A stretch of 10,478 nt of DNA from Candidatus Aminicenantota bacterium (GTDB taxonomy: Bacteria > Acidobacteriota > Aminicenantia > UBA2199). Positions 2,781-7,331 of the stretch are shown here, in pieces (the stretch's first letter is position 1; each line of letters opens with the position of its first letter). The notes beneath the pieces are model-generated. The model worked only from the letters and a program-made list of their open reading frames with translations. It made no database searches and was not told where the DNA came from. Location of the stretch: assembly GCA_030620255.1 (NCBI GenBank), contig JAUXFB010000019.1, positions 1 to 10,478 on the forward strand. The letters are read 5' to 3'. A program made the position numbers and the translations under genes.

Positions 2781-4436
2781 TCAATGCTTTCTCTTGTAAT
2801 TTAAAGATGCAATTCTACAAATAACTCCATCTGGAAGTTGTGTTGAAAATTCTCTTATATTCAGGATAAGCTCTTTTACATCATTATCACTAATAGCATA
2901 AAATGAAACAGTATTAAAAGCACATATTACATTTTTTAAAATAGTCCATTCCCCAACCTTAACCCATTTGTGAGGAACGCCTCCAACAGGTTTTAATAGA
3001 TTGTCATAAATAATAGCAATCTTAGCATTATTATTGTATGCCCATTTTGTAATGTTTGCCTTAGTGTACTCTCCTCTAAGAATAAGATCGCCTATATCTT
3101 TATTACAAAGCCCGAGAATGTCCAGACATTTAATGTCAGTTAAAAAATTTATTGCTCCAATATCATTTACAATGATATGTTCTCCTTTATAATATTTGTC
3201 CAAAAACAAACCCATTTGATACTGTTGCGAATATACATTAAATGTGGCTTGAGGAACCTTGACACTCATTCGTATCCCCCTCTCAGCAAGAGGTAATATA
3301 CATATAAAAACAAGGAATATTAAAACTGATCTTTCAAAAAAGTTTCTCTTTTGTATAAAAATCTTCTCTCTTAATATGTAACCAAAAAAGTTAAATATCA
3401 CAAACAATCCAATTGCAACTAAATAAGAATCATACCTGACCTGTTCAGGACGATTCAAGAAAAAACCAGTACGTGCAAAAACCATATGTATAAAAGTTGT
3501 AATCAAAAAGATCACACACATTACAGGATAAAAAGAAAATAAACTTTTTTGCTTTTTTAATAAAAAGAGAAGCACACACAAAATAATAATAATAAGTAAA
3601 AGAATATGGATATTATAAATAATATGTCTAATGCCTACATAAAAGAACTTAAAAAAACCATCAAAACTTAAGATATCTTTCAAACGATTACCCTTTAACA
3701 AAACAGAATTGGGCAAAAAATACCATCCCTTTGACACTGATACTATTCCATAGATCACCACAGGTAAAACCCCTATTATTCCAAGAATAAATGATTTTAT
3801 AAACTCTCTTTTAAACAGTAATAATATACAAACAGCAAAAACAAGAAACATACCTTCAAAACGAACCATTGTAACCAAAGGAGCTAATAATAAGATAAAG
3901 ATATCATTTTTATTAATCTTGTGCTTTAAAGGTGCATGTTTTGTAATAGCTATTGATGCTATATAAATGAATACAAGATCTATTAATATTTGCAGAATAT
4001 GCTCAAGCCCTGAAAACACAAGAAGAGGAATAGGAGTAAAAATGATAAAACAAATCAATACAAATAACATCTGAAAAAAATTGAAATTAAATTTTTCAAA
4101 TAAATAATATAAAAATAATAATAGAACTGTGGAGAAGAAAAAATTTAAAACAAAAGGGGTTAATTCATTCACTCCAAAAATAGAATAAAAAAATGATAAA
4201 ACAGATGTCCATAATAAAGATGAAGATGAAGATGAGAACTTATGTTTTGTAGCTCCCCATACCCCGTGTTGAGAAAAATTTTTAGCCATTGTCATGTGAA
4301 TATAAGCATCATCATGCGAATAGACCAATTTCCCACCAGTTTTTAAAAAAGAAGAATTAAGAAATAGAGTTATTAATATCCACATGCTTAATATTGCTAC
4401 AATCAATACAACAAATTTTCCTTGATTTTTTTTCAA
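2781..4436 (-). CDS. Predicted GT-C type membrane glycosyltransferase
   Basis: A 551-residue polytopic membrane protein with an N-terminal helix (about 8-28), roughly eight to ten helices to about residue 388, and a soluble C-terminal domain (about 390-551). Features typical of lipid-phosphosugar-dependent GT-C enzymes are visible: an acidic HDDAYIH motif (41-47) in the first external loop, SGLE (142-145), VRFEG (191-195), LPNS followed by K (241-248), and NDIGAINF (424-431) in the C-terminal domain. Such enzymes move a sugar from a polyprenyl-phosphate donor on the outer face of the cytoplasmic membrane; donor and acceptor cannot be read here. Serines 68-73 form a six-serine run. The start is a TTG supported by a good Shine-Dalgarno sequence; the first internal ATG (residue 18) would cut into the first helix. 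It is the first gene of the minus-strand operon, divergent from wzm. Confidence 0.7.
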   Translation of the reverse strand: MKKNQGKFVVLIVAILSMWILITLFLNSSFLKTGGKLVYSHDDAYIHMTMAKNFSQHGVWGATKHKFSSSSSSLLWTSVLSFFYSIFGVNELTPFVLNFFFSTVLLLFLYYLFEKFNFNFFQMLFVLICFIIFTPIPLLVFSGLEHILQILIDLVFIYIASIAITKHAPLKHKINKNDIFILLLAPLVTMVRFEGMFLVFAVCILLLFKREFIKSFILGIIGVLPVVIYGIVSVSKGWYFLPNSVLLKGNRLKDILSFDGFFKFFYVGIRHIIYNIHILLLIIIILCVLLFLLKKQKSLFSFYPVMCVIFLITTFIHMVFARTGFFLNRPEQVRYDSYLVAIGLFVIFNFFGYILREKIFIQKRNFFERSVLIFLVFICILPLAERGIRMSVKVPQATFNVYSQQYQMGLFLDKYYKGEHIIVNDIGAINFLTDIKCLDILGLCNKDIGDLILRGEYTKANITKWAYNNNAKIAIIYDNLLKPVGGVPHKWVKVGEWTILKNVICAFNTVSFYAISDNDVKELILNIREFSTQLPDGVICRIASLNYKRKH

Positions 4437-4688: not shown

Positions 4689-5537
4689 ATGAACATGAGT
4701 AATATAAAAACTTACGAGCCTGATAATGTATTAAAACAAGGATACTTTTCTACATTTAAAAGAATATTTCAAGAAATAGCCCAAAATCGCTGGTTAACTG
4801 TTCAATTGTTCAAAAGAGATTTTTTCGCAATATATAAACAATCCTTTATAGGAATTTTATGGGCAATAATTATTCCATTTGTTAGTGTGGGAACATTTGT
4901 TATTTTAAACCGCTCAGGGGTTTTTAATATTGGCAGCATAAAGACTCCTTATGCGATTTATGCTATTTTTGGAATGGCAATATGGCAAATATTCTCAACA
5001 GGGCTTATTGCAAGCTCAAGCTCTCTTATAAAAGCAGGCTCAATGATTGTTAAAATAAATTTCTCAAAAAAATCTCTTGTTATTGCCTCTTTATGCCAAT
5101 CAATCTTATCTTTCCTAATCCAATTTATTGTATGTTTAATTCTGTTTTTCTATTATGGAATTTCACCCAAAATATATATTCTTCTATTACCAATTTTAAT
5201 AATCCCAATTTTTCTGTTGACTTTAGGGCTTGGTTTTGTTTTTTCAATTCTTAATGGAATTATGCGCGACATTGGAAATGCTCTCTCAATACTTATTACT
5301 TTCCTTATGTTCTTGACTCCTGTGCTTTATGCAAAACCCCAAACAGGCTTATTATCAAAGATTTCCTTTTACAGTCCATTATACTATCTTGTCGCATTTC
5401 CAAGAGATCTGATTTTAGCAGGAAATACGGATGAGCTAACAGGATATATAATTTCAAGTATTTTTGCATTTACTATCTTATTTATCTGTATTTTTGTTTT
5501 TCATCTGTCAGAAACCCGCATAGCAGAGAGAATTTGA
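4689..5537 (+). CDS. wzm: ABC-2 type polysaccharide export permease (Wzm-like)
   Basis: A 282-residue integral membrane subunit of a Wzm/Wzt-type exporter, which moves a lipid-linked O-antigen or similar glycan across the cytoplasmic membrane. The N-terminal cytoplasmic segment ends in FKRDFFAIYKQSFIGILWA (about 41-59), the amphipathic interface motif typical of this family, followed by about six membrane helices. RDIGNA and the helix ending FLTPVLY are family hallmarks. Length is close to the usual ~260-280 residues, so the protein looks complete. ATG at 4689 is taken as start; a second ATG at 4695 is equally near and neither has a clear Shine-Dalgarno sequence. Its partner ATPase, normally directly adjacent, is separated by an inserted repeat unit with a four-helix-bundle gene. 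The TGA stop (5535-5537) coincides with the first partial octamer of that repeat. Confidence 0.9.
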   Translation: MNMSNIKTYEPDNVLKQGYFSTFKRIFQEIAQNRWLTVQLFKRDFFAIYKQSFIGILWAIIIPFVSVGTFVILNRSGVFNIGSIKTPYAIYAIFGMAIWQIFSTGLIASSSSLIKAGSMIVKINFSKKSLVIASLCQSILSFLIQFIVCLILFFYYGISPKIYILLLPILIIPIFLLTLGLGFVFSILNGIMRDIGNALSILITFLMFLTPVLYAKPQTGLLSKISFYSPLYYLVAFPRDLILAGNTDELTGYIISSIFAFTILFICIFVFHLSETRIAERI

Positions 5538-5643
5538 ATGGGTGAAAGAGTAAATGGGTGGATGGGTGAATGAGTAAATGGGTGAATGGGTGAAAGAGTG
5601 GATGGGTGAAAGAGTGAATGGGTGGATGAGTGAAGGAGAGAAT
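5535..5643 (+). repeat. Tandem 8-bp repeat array (GGGTGAAT/GAGTGGAT family, 13 units)
   Basis: From 5540 to 5643 the sequence divides exactly into 13 octamers with no gaps: GGGTGAAA, GAGTAAAT, GGGTGGAT, GGGTGAAT, GAGTAAAT, GGGTGAAT, GGGTGAAA, GAGTGGAT, GGGTGAAA, GAGTGAAT, GGGTGGAT, GAGTGAAG and GAGAGAAT. The consensus is roughly GRGTRRAW. TGAAT at 5535-5539 is a further partial unit and contains the wzm stop codon. The last two units drift into GAAGGAGAG, the Shine-Dalgarno sequence of the next gene. Strand bias is extreme: there is no C between 5537 and 5643. Confidence 0.95.
5633..5638 (+). promoter_or_regulatory. Ribosome binding site made from the end of the octamer array
   Basis: AAGGAG lies 7 nt before the TTG at 5646 and is built from the junction of the last two repeat units (GAGTGAAG, GAGAGAAT). 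It supports TTG as the initiator of the four-helix-bundle gene, because no ATG or GTG is available between the array and the conserved DLDIWKRG motif. Confidence 0.7.
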
Positions 5644-5645
5644 AA

Positions 5646-6005
5646 TTGAAAACACATAAAGATTTAGATATATGGAAAAGGGGTATTGATTTAGTAATTG
5701 ATATTTACAAAATTACCGGAAAATTTCCCAAAGAAGAAATTTATGGATTAACTTCTCAAATGCGAAGATCAGCAATTTCTTATCCCAGTAATATTGCTGA
5801 AGGTGCAGCGAAAAATACTAAATCAGATTATATTCGATTCATCTATATTTCTTTAGGGTCTTTATCTGAATTAGAGACCCATGTTATAATATCAAAAAAT
5901 TTAGGATTTATCTCTGATGTTAATGATTTATTAAAGGAAATAGAAATATTACGTAAAATGACACTCAACTTTATAAAGCATTTAAAAAATAAAGTTAATG
6001 AGTAG
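5646..6005 (+). CDS. Four-helix-bundle protein, S23 / 23S rRNA intervening-sequence protein family
   Basis: A 119-residue protein with the full signature of the family first found encoded inside 23S rRNA intervening sequences: DLDIWKRG (6-13), FPKEEIYGLTSQMRRSAIS (27-45), NIAEGAAK (49-56), and SLGSLSELETH (69-79). Family members fold as four-helix bundles that assemble into pentamers and are related to the Avd accessory proteins of diversity-generating retroelements, where they bind nucleic acid; the job of stand-alone members is not known. No 23S rRNA, reverse transcriptase or variable repeat is present in this window. The start is TTG, with AAGGAG 7 nt upstream. The gene lies between wzm and wzt, 108 nt after the wzm stop and 21 nt before the wzt ATG, flanked by octamer arrays. 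It has no obvious link to glycan export and is probably a passenger. Confidence 0.88.
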   Translation: MKTHKDLDIWKRGIDLVIDIYKITGKFPKEEIYGLTSQMRRSAISYPSNIAEGAAKNTKSDYIRFIYISLGSLSELETHVIISKNLGFISDVNDLLKEIEILRKMTLNFIKHLKNKVNE

Positions 6006-6026
6006 AGAAGTAAAGGAAAGTACGAA

Positions 6027-7331
6027 ATGAGTAAAATAACCGATTCGAAATTACAACAAATAAATAATTTAGAAACCAACTCATCTACTCATCTACCCGC
6101 CAACCCATCTACCGACACAGTCATCAAAGTTGAGAATGTTTCAAAGAAATTCTGCAAATCTTTGAAAAGATCAATGATCTATGGAATGCAGGACATTTCG
6201 AGAAATATATTAGGTCTGAATTCAAAATCTGATAAACTTAAAAATAATGAATTCTGGGCTTTAAATGAAATATCTTTTGAATTAAAAAGAGGAGAAACAC
6301 TTGGAATAATCGGACCAAATGGCTCCGGGAAAACAACCCTTTTAAAATTACTCAATGGAATTTTCTGGCCTGACAAGGGTAAAATTACCATTAAGGGAAG
6401 AGTGGGTGCTTTAATAGAAGTAGGAGCTGGTTTTCATCCAATGTTAACTGGAAGAGAGAATATTTATGTAAATGCTGCAATTCTTGGAATGAGGAAAAAA
6501 GAGGTGGATAAAAAATTTGATGATATTATTGAGTTCGCAGATATTGGAGACTTCATTGATTCCCCTGTAAAAAAATATTCCTCAGGAATGTTCGTAAGGC
6601 TTGGTTTTGCAATTGCTGTTCACTGTGAACCTGATATTCTTTTAATTGATGAGATATTAGCTGTTGGAGATTTATCCTTTCAAGCCAGATGTAGAAAAAA
6701 GATCCAGGAGATGAGAGAAAAAGGTATTACAATTTTTTTAGTATCCCATAATATGCACACTATAAACCATCTATGCAATAAGGCAATGACTATAAATTGT
6801 GGAAAACAAATCTTCATTGGCGAAACAGAAAGGGCGATAGATATTTATAAAGAAATTCAAATACGAAAACAAAGTATTCATATACATTCGAACAAAAAAG
6901 AAATTGAAATAGCAGACTTCAAAATTCTAAATAAAAAAGGCGTTATTCAAAATGATTTTAAAACTGGAAATTATATAAAATTTAGAATCTATTATAAAGC
7001 TAATACTACAATCCAGAACCCAGTTTTCAATATTGCCATTTATTCAAGTAAAACAGAAATAATAACTGGAATTAGAACTGATGTAGACAATATAGAAACA
7101 GGTGCTTTTTCTGGAACGGGTTATGTTGATTTAATAATTAAAAATTTTAATCTTTTACCTGATGTTTATAGAATAAATGCAACAATCTTTCATTCATGCG
7201 GATTTGAATTTTATGATAGAATAGAACAAATAAACCATTTAAGGATAATTGGCGGGCAGAATGTACACGGTAACATGTTTTTACCACACACATGGTTTTT
7301 TAATTCTGGACATAACTCGCTTGAAATTTAA
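6027..7331 (+). CDS. wzt: ABC transporter ATPase with glycan-binding C-terminal domain (Wzt-like)
   Basis: A 434-residue ATPase that powers export of a lipid-linked polysaccharide through Wzm. Visible motifs are Walker A GPNGSGKT (96-103), the signature YSSGM (184-188), Walker B ILLIDE (204-209), VGD of the D-loop (213-215) and the H-loop histidine (H241). After about residue 285 comes a beta-rich domain like the Wzt C-terminal carbohydrate-binding module, which recognises the modified non-reducing end of the polymer in O9a-type systems. This suggests a capped glycan. The conserved domain begins at about V32 (VIKVENVSKKF); residues 1-31 are an unusual extension, of which about 18-31 are encoded by inverted octamer repeats. 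The start ATG (6027) has AAAGGA upstream, and no in-frame ATG, GTG or TTG lies between it and the conserved domain. The next gene follows after 12 bp. Confidence 0.92.
   Translation: MSKITDSKLQQINNLETNSSTHLPANPSTDTVIKVENVSKKFCKSLKRSMIYGMQDISRNILGLNSKSDKLKNNEFWALNEISFELKRGETLGIIGPNGSGKTTLLKLLNGIFWPDKGKITIKGRVGALIEVGAGFHPMLTGRENIYVNAAILGMRKKEVDKKFDDIIEFADIGDFIDSPVKKYSSGMFVRLGFAIAVHCEPDILLIDEILAVGDLSFQARCRKKIQEMREKGITIFLVSHNMHTINHLCNKAMTINCGKQIFIGETERAIDIYKEIQIRKQSIHIHSNKKEIEIADFKILNKKGVIQNDFKTGNYIKFRIYYKANTTIQNPVFNIAIYSSKTEIITGIRTDVDNIETGAFSGTGYVDLIIKNFNLLPDVYRINATIFHSCGFEFYDRIEQINHLRIIGGQNVHGNMFLPHTWFFNSGHNSLEI
6079..6118 (-). repeat. Inverted octamer repeats within the 5' coding region of wzt
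   Basis: On the plus strand the units read ACTCATCT, ACTCATCT, ACCCGCCA, ACCCATCT and a degenerate ACCGACAC. On the minus strand this is GGGT and GAGT alternating with AGAT, the same octamer family and the same 8-bp period as the array at 5535-5643, in opposite orientation and more diverged. The stretch encodes Wzt residues about 18-31, with a Ser/Thr/His/Pro-rich composition. Confidence 0.75.

Follow-up and report, generated by a model that had tools for sequence, protein, structure and literature searches.

Known S23 systems and the block between wzm and wzt

In Coxiella burnetii the gene for 23S ribosomal RNA (rRNA) carries an intervening sequence (IVS) that contains an S23 open reading frame (ORF) in sense orientation, has complementary ends forming a 28-bp stem, occurs sporadically and has been called a selfish element; this, like what follows on the Coxiella IVS, is taken from excerpts of one report (PMC4990558). 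According to the same excerpts, GACAGAT heptamers precede the ORF in direct orientation and vary in number between strains, RNase III excises the IVS, the S23 protein of Xanthomonas is a homopentamer, and S23 proteins have no known function (PMC4990558). Here we describe an S23 gene from a Candidatus Aminicenantota bacterium, found in a stretch of 10,478 nucleotides (positions 1 to 10,478 of contig JAUXFB010000019.1, assembly GCA_030620255.1; this whole stretch is called the window). The gene lies in a block from 5535 to ~6116, between the protein genes wzm and wzt, which is probably an IVS-type mobile DNA unit of ~0.45-0.6 kb outside rRNA and for which the name S23 cassette is used. Such a cassette consists of an S23/IVP gene with an array on its left and an inverted one on its right, and it occupies the space from the stop codon of an operon gene to the start codon of the gene behind it. 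Comparable cassettes, with a repeat of their own in each case, are found between adjacent genes across many bacterial groups and look like a widespread type of mobile DNA that has hardly been described. In the open-licence literature, a scope that leaves out most subscription papers, no account of array-flanked S23 genes outside rRNA was found.

The cassette resembles the 23S rRNA IVS in having an S23-family ORF in the insert, in sense to the host transcript; in its complementary ends (the window arms pair, and 106/197 collected copies have inverted flanks at the 99th percentile of the null given below); and in its short repeats and sporadic presence, with empty sites in relatives of cassette hosts. 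The IVS sits in helix 45 of the 23S rRNA, whereas the window unit lies between two protein genes and by this location falls outside the rRNA class. In a coarse test with six 23S motifs, none of 221 cassette loci contained two or more of them. The Coxiella IVS has its heptamers upstream of the ORF; matched inverted arrays, joint evolution of the arms and repeated entry into junctions are features of the S23 cassettes (the comparison is with the excerpts of PMC4990558).

The stand-alone S23 proteins XCC0516 (2GSC) and BT_0352 (2RLD), both solved as proteins of unknown function, belong to the same family and have the same fold, and the four-helix fold is also that of Avd from diversity-generating retroelements (4DWL, 8UBE). 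Avd works with a reverse transcriptase and with template/variable repeats; there is no reverse transcriptase among the Pfam matches of the window and no RVT_1 match in its 77%-complete genome, in which template/variable repeats were not searched for. The link of S23 to retroelements is one of fold. With insertion sequences and transposons the cassette shares terminal inverted repeats, which are here arrays rather than unique ends, but it differs in having no transposase or recombinase gene. Repetitive extragenic palindromes with their associated transposases (REP/RAYT units) and miniature inverted-repeat transposable elements (MITEs) are small, have inverted ends, lie between genes and occur many times per genome. 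The S23 cassettes are like them in all four respects; they differ in the degenerate short-unit arrays at their ends, in the S23 gene under purifying selection inside, and in the Y1 transposase, of which a Pfam search found no domain in the window cassette, PF05635 being the only match inside the unit.

The block and the two genes that enclose it are arranged as follows.

5535..5638, plus strand: left arm, 13 gap-free octamers of the TGAATGGG type, the first codon being the wzm stop codon TGA
5646..6005, plus strand: S23/IVP (four helix bundle) gene, 119 amino acids (aa), TTG start, PF05635 (E 9e-35), TIGR02436
6079..6110, minus strand: right arm, four octamers of the left-arm family, inverted, with a partial unit to ~6116; read as the N-terminus of wzt
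4689..5537, plus strand: wzm-like ABC-2 permease gene (PF01061), whose stop codon opens the left arm
6027..7331, plus strand: wzt-like ATPase gene (PF00005, PF14524), whose N-terminus runs through the right arm

A preliminary description had reported a gap-free array of 13 octamers from the wzm stop codon on, an S23-family four-helix-bundle gene behind it, and the same octamer family inverted beyond the gene, and all three were borne out. The left array can be read directly from 5535 (TGAATGGG, TGAAAGAG, TAAATGGG and so on), is found by Tandem Repeats Finder (TRF) in rows scoring 109-141, and matches a 21-nt array pattern (3 mismatches or fewer) seven times, always within 5560-5644, where 200 dinucleotide shuffles lead one to expect none. 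The gene is identified by its PF05635 and TIGR02436 matches. On the minus strand, 6110-6079 reads AGATGGGT TGGCGGGT AGATGAGT AGATGAGT.

That the block separates two normally adjacent genes also held, with one refinement. In three relatives the wzt ATG follows the end of the wzm orthologue after 2 nt (G006, wzm 67% identical), 4 nt (G008, 56%) and 4 nt (G014, a split match, 55-59%), so that the empty wzm-wzt junction for which the preliminary description had proposed to look exists three times (loci L169, L170 and L172). In the nearest relative, G001, the wzm match ends at the end of a contig and the junction is not readable. The refinement concerns the right array: the wzt ATG of the window is now at 6027, the array therefore falls inside the wzt ORF, and ~26 N-terminal residues, among them 'THLPANPST', have been added relative to the Wzt of G006. 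In L122, too, the called wzt-like ORF apparently runs through the right array (PDPQSQIPSPD). To judge from these two reading frames, cassette arms can turn into coding sequence.

Arms and protein of the S23 cassette

A total of 205 S23 copies was collected, of which 8 were dropped for short flanks and 197 had readable ones. The upstream flank of each was aligned against the reverse-complemented downstream flank, 909 pseudo-gene placements serving as the null. (The set of 197 still includes near-duplicates; 13 of the 205 were removed only for neighbour orientation and the counts after it.) Beside the 106/197 copies beyond the 99th percentile there are 146/197 beyond the 95th, as compared with 4/271 and 23/271 control genes of 60-400 aa past the same scores, and the flanks of the four control genes past the 99th-percentile score have none of the look of a degenerate array. 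The highest inverted-flank score among the 271 control genes (48) belongs to L288:6648-7548, by its motif presumably a REP-associated Y1 transposase gene. Array-like inverted flanks (score 33) with no S23 gene inside are also found at ~16560-17270 of L283, where they enclose what we take to be a microcompartment shell gene; shell genes like this one stand upstream of S23 cassettes elsewhere.

Controls in which flanks of different copies were paired were also run, and these are conservative because cassettes share unit families. In these controls the own partner ranks first for 29/55 copies from the relatives, and 18/76 named loci, against 0/273 pseudo-genes, lie beyond the 99th percentile. The density of TRF arrays is 2.75 per kb up to 300 nt from an S23 gene and 0.46 per kb in the more distant parts of these loci; it is 0.27 per kb in the 20 control stretches from which the 271 control genes come (388 kb from six cassette-bearing genomes, chosen at spaced positions and not at random). 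An array stands left of the gene in 147/205 copies, right of it in 146/205 and on both sides in 119/205. Upstream of the S23 gene of L010 (G002:C46), arrays of the GATGGGTA, TCAGC, AAAAAGT and GGATTTGG types follow one another in tandem; from their sequence they look like nested cassettes or the relics of earlier ones.

The preliminary description had suggested a scan of other S23 genes for octamers of the GRGTRRAW type. Flanking arrays are indeed common there, but the fixed signature fell away: the arrays are degenerate, and the unit, mostly 7-8 nt long, is specific to the cassette. Polarity, period and unit counts were determined in 129 copies preselected for inverted-flank scores of 26 or more. 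In 116/129 the left arm is richer in G than in C, and in 12/129 it is poorer; the best period of the 116 arms that could be tested is 7 in 48, 14 in 33 and 8 in 24. Left arms start at a median of +1 nt from the upstream stop codon (97/133 within -30 to +15), and right arms end at a median of 15 nt before the next start codon (68/134 within 30 nt). Stop codons in all three frames occur in 83/137 left arms that are 24 nt or longer, against a shuffle mean of 34; shuffling destroys the periodicity, so this control is not clean and nothing is claimed from it.

The units follow the lineage of the protein. Among non-orthologous pairs array similarity climbs with protein identity (Mantel r 0.19; null standard deviation (sd) 0.035, maximum of 500 permutations 0.107), and the octamer family of the window is met again beside related S23 proteins in L126 (Cloacimonadota), L133 (Nautiliaceae), L135 (Nitrospirae) and L160 (Omnitrophota). 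Within a cassette the two arms are more like each other than like those of a sister cassette in 99% of 1860 pairs with 50-60% protein identity, 93% of 224 pairs with 60-70% and 84% of 19 pairs with 70-80%. From the unit-protein correlation and this advantage of the own arms we conclude that the array belongs to the cassette and drifts, both sides jointly.

The AlphaFold2 model of the window S23 protein has four helices and a mean pLDDT (predicted local distance difference test score) of 95.6. It superimposes on 2GSC with a template modelling (TM) score of 0.90 (E 1.8e-7; by sequence E 1.3e-25), on chain B of 2RLD with 0.80 (E 0.0065), and on bAvd (4DWL) with 0.78 (Foldseek probability 1.00, E 0.51). 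The positions that do not vary across 26 S23 sequences include E31, Q38, R41, S45, N49, E52, S72 and E75. The proteins are mostly basic, with a predicted isoelectric point of 9.3 in the window and a median of 8.9 in 219 S23 proteins. They are under purifying selection: omega was computable for 12/15 pairs and is 0.06-0.27 in these, some of which have a dS close to saturation; this low omega indicates that the S23 protein is kept functional.

The window genome (G000, in which the window is contig C250) is a 1.75-Mb draft, 77% complete, with three PF05635 genes besides that of the window. Inspected by eye, each of the three is flanked left and right by short degenerate repeats with a unit of its own, those of L001 (AGTGTCAGTG type) being clearly inverted, those of L003 (AAGTTTAAG type) mixed and those of L004 (AGTAAAAAGG type) weak. 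PF05635 matches occur in 22/41 relatives (18 above the family cut-off), in 75/149 genomes of the phylum of the window (71 above the cut-off) and in 52/60 genomes of a genus related to Prevotella; the highest number in a single genome is 20. Genus g6 is represented by seven genomes, with 8, 0, 8, 2, 0, 10 and 1 matches. A wider scan of contigs confirmed at least 550 stretches, the best 80 of which come from Bacteroidota, Nitrospirae, Cloacimonadota, Omnitrophota, Chloroflexota, Campylobacterales, ANME-1 archaea and others. Some S23 copies carry internal stop codons or are fragments. Phage sequences gave no S23 match at E 1e-5.

Occupied and vacant junctions

In a plasmid collection 41 records match S23, mostly from cyanobacteria. 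Two plasmids of Calothrix brevissima NIES-22 have, in this order, an integrase stop codon, an AGGGTGT array, the S23 gene, the inverted array and an ATG; in the three records examined for comparison, from Tolypothrix PCC 7601, Aulosira laxa and Nostoc carneum, the integrase junction is empty (stop codon, 3 nt, ATG). In Nostoc sp. C052 and N. edaphicum a TraM stop codon is followed by a GGGAACA array, S23 and a TGTTCCC array. Of five other TraM junctions examined, three are empty (Nostoc sp. C057 p057_A and p057_K, and UHCC 0926) and two have inserts without an S23 gene. C052 and N. edaphicum share 99.4% identity in the cassette, 82.6% in TraM on its left and 94.5% in the next gene on its right, and differ in the copy number of the right array; between C052 and the empty p057_A the identities are 91.5% for TraM and 95.4% for the next gene. 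A cassette more alike than its flanks fits a recent transfer of the cassette, although a recombination tract extending rightward may have produced the identity of C052 and N. edaphicum.

The first of the two S23-less inserts, at ~1411-1672 of L326 (Nostoc sp. ATCC 53789 pNsp_c), has a left arm of the GGGAAC type and a right arm of the TTCCCTA type with no annotated S23 gene between them, and looks, from this sequence, like an S23-less derivative. The second, at ~1409-1750 of L332 (Nostoc sp. C057 p057_H), has inverted AATTCAAA / TTTGAATT arrays with no S23 gene inside, and the word GTCA stands at both ends of the insert, adjoining the empty-site sequence.

A chromosomal junction was followed in the same way. 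Among 60 genomes of the genus to which L167 belongs, 51 have a match to its SdhB, and 47 of these junctions could be counted (G245, or L228, gave a partial match without an S23 ORF, G207 and G230 ran into contig ends and G217 had partial matches). The sdhA-sdhB junction contains a cassette in 14/47 and a gap of 25 nt or less in 29/47. By eye the units of these cassettes form five or six groups. L216 and L217, with sdhB genes 92% identical in DNA, have S23 proteins only 52% identical and different units; the same is true of L223 and L224 (sdhB 92%, S23 49%, units different). L194 and L224 have one unit group in common, though their sdhB genes are 59% identical. In L208 (G226) the junction has 222 nt with a different ORF of ~71 aa, not S23.

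A wzm-like gene stands upstream of 9/221 cassettes, and in 8 of these 9 a wzt-like gene also stands downstream. The Wzm proteins beside cassettes form four lineages, 21-31% identical, the S23 proteins across these lineages being 42-70% identical; at some wzm-wzt loci the right array is direct, not inverted. Further recurrent junctions, to judge by the sequences of the genes, look like rmlB-rmlA, fadB-fadA, etfA-acyl-CoA dehydrogenase and hisA-hisF. One junction has been retained in four Cloacimonadota genomes (L124, L142, L144 and L153). In a published table for Flavobacterium columnare, guanylate kinase, four helix bundle protein and nicotinate-nucleotide adenylyltransferase are consecutive entries under phage elements, and the passages concerned do not mention repeats (PMC5524665).

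For the orientation of the cassettes, 192 unique copies less 18 without a called neighbour and 7 with a neighbour more than 600 nt away left 167. Cassettes stand in sense orientation between co-directional genes in 121 of these, in antisense in 6, between convergent genes in 25 and between divergent genes in 15.

Mobile DNA, paired RNA or host gene

The preliminary description had seen in the block a small mobile-looking unit rather than a gene for glycan export, and the arrays at other stand-alone S23 genes together with the empty junctions speak for this view. For the S23 cassette as mobile DNA we propose the following. The arms would be the ends of the element at the DNA level. The S23 protein, presumably a multimer like its solved relative, would bind or anneal the folded arms of its own cassette and thereby help the cassette to spread or persist, while slippage and copying between the hairpin arms would keep the drifting arrays matched. 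The cutting and joining of DNA may be a host function or homologous recombination via the conserved flanking genes. The cassette would rely on host transcription, and insertions would be tolerated only between genes, which in this proposal is the reason for the sense bias and the flush fit.

Several results weigh against the cassette as a mobile element. Transposition itself was not observed. A Pfam search found no transposase or recombinase gene in the window cassette, and by eye no clear target-site duplication was seen at two plasmid junctions, where the flanks of the empty alleles are ~90-95% identical. In direct orientation, too, 40/197 copies score beyond the 99th percentile (56/197 beyond the 95th), the right arrays of some cassettes, e.g. 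L147 and L156, are direct, and 51/197 copies have no inverted flanks even at the 95th percentile. The four copies of the window genome (C223, window, C140, C120) score 28, 28, 38 and 24 inverted and 18, 20, 46 and 28 direct, and with such low scores this genome does not provide the strongest examples. The advantage of the own arms is seen in 3/5 pairs at 80-90% protein identity and in 0/5 above 90% (own equal to cross), where the cassettes compared are nearly the same. The sense bias is only somewhat above that of ordinary genes (among 110 control genes, two neighbours on the strand of the gene itself were counted for 73, a single one for 25 and none for 12; 121:6 versus 73:12) and is therefore weak as a proof of mobility when taken alone. 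Four sdhA-sdhB junctions hold other sequence (46, 46, 112 and 222 nt), and recurrence at one junction could mean homologous exchange of alleles or a permissive site.

A bolder reading, which we hold to be rather unlikely, is that S23 cassettes are a categorically new mobile element, in which a four-helix protein recognises the inverted heptamer or octamer arms of its own cassette and, with no reverse transcriptase or known transposase, inserts the cassette into operons, in sense orientation, at the gap from a stop codon to the next start codon. Arms and protein would diverge together, giving every lineage a code of its own, and the 23S rRNA IVS would be one special landing site; that the rRNA IVS is the special case has a real chance of being correct. 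If S23 proteins are at once the cargo and the agent of a single kind of mobile cassette, many of them would be accounted for together; the long-standing riddle of the 23S IVS would be tied to a general element, a test bed for the joint evolution of inverted arrays would be at hand, and a route for DNA into operons at stop/start junctions would have been found. The cyanobacterial plasmid pairs are occupied and empty alleles that permit a direct test.

The alternative that survives best, unlikely but still to be reckoned with, is that the arms act as RNA: they would pair in the polycistronic mRNA and loop out the S23 gene, joining stop and start codon, or provide a site for a cut by RNase III, and the cassette might be mobile as well. 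The start of the left arms at the stop codon and the mostly sense orientation are consistent with this, RNase III excision has its precedent in the Coxiella 23S IVS (excerpts of PMC4990558), and in the predicted RNA the window arms do pair (-123.9 versus -110.6 kcal/mol, sd 6.4, z -2.1; 3/100 shuffles as good). If pairing were kept in RNA, G.U mismatches would outlast A.C mismatches, but in 129 cassettes there are 213 of the former and 226 of the latter (P 0.57). This absence of a G.U excess gives no support to selection for RNA pairing and lowers the RNA reading; as any inverted repeat tends to pair, ends at the DNA level are ranked first and RNA second. Moreover, a cut in the right arm of the window, which is within the wzt ORF, would trim the coding region, and right arms end 30 nt or less from the next start codon in only the 68/134 mentioned above.

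It is improbable that the S23 gene is an ordinarily inherited host gene serving its operon, for example as a regulator, with the arrays as a by-product. Purifying selection (omega 0.06-0.27), sense orientation and the junction kept in the four Cloacimonadota genomes would all be expected of such a gene. It is contradicted by the patchy occurrence among close relatives (from 0 to 10 matches per genome in genus g6), by the unrelated neighbour genes, by sister hosts with different cassettes at one junction and by copies with internal stops or in fragments; the empty junctions in close relatives had already weakened it.

Still less probable is a retro-mobile unit served by a reverse transcriptase acting in trans, S23 taking the part of Avd. 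The preliminary description had pointed to a kinship with these retroelement proteins; of this the fold stood, with the TM score of 0.78 and Foldseek probability of 1.00 against bAvd 4DWL, though E was 0.51, and PF05635 has been noted to resemble Avd (PMC10053308). The reverse transcriptase did not: RVT_1 matches are present in 12/41 relatives and absent from G000 (the window genome), G001, G018, G023 and G026, which have 4, 4, 8, 10 and 7 S23 matches, respectively. As these genomes are drafts, the absence is not proof. Dependence on a reverse transcriptase was rejected as a candidate, RVT_1 not co-occurring with the S23 copies.

That the arrays were there first, or derive from the target, and that the S23 gene landed in them is scarcely credible: by eye the first octamer of the window is similar to the wzm stop / wzt start in G006, whose junction is empty, but arms are mostly inverted rather than direct and empty junctions have no array, which largely refutes this origin. 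Arrays derived from the target were rejected because a single site can carry different units and because the unit goes with the protein whatever the site.

Outside the block, positions 2781-4436 of the window encode on the minus strand a 551-aa protein that has no Pfam match at E 0.001 and is, by eye, hydrophobic.

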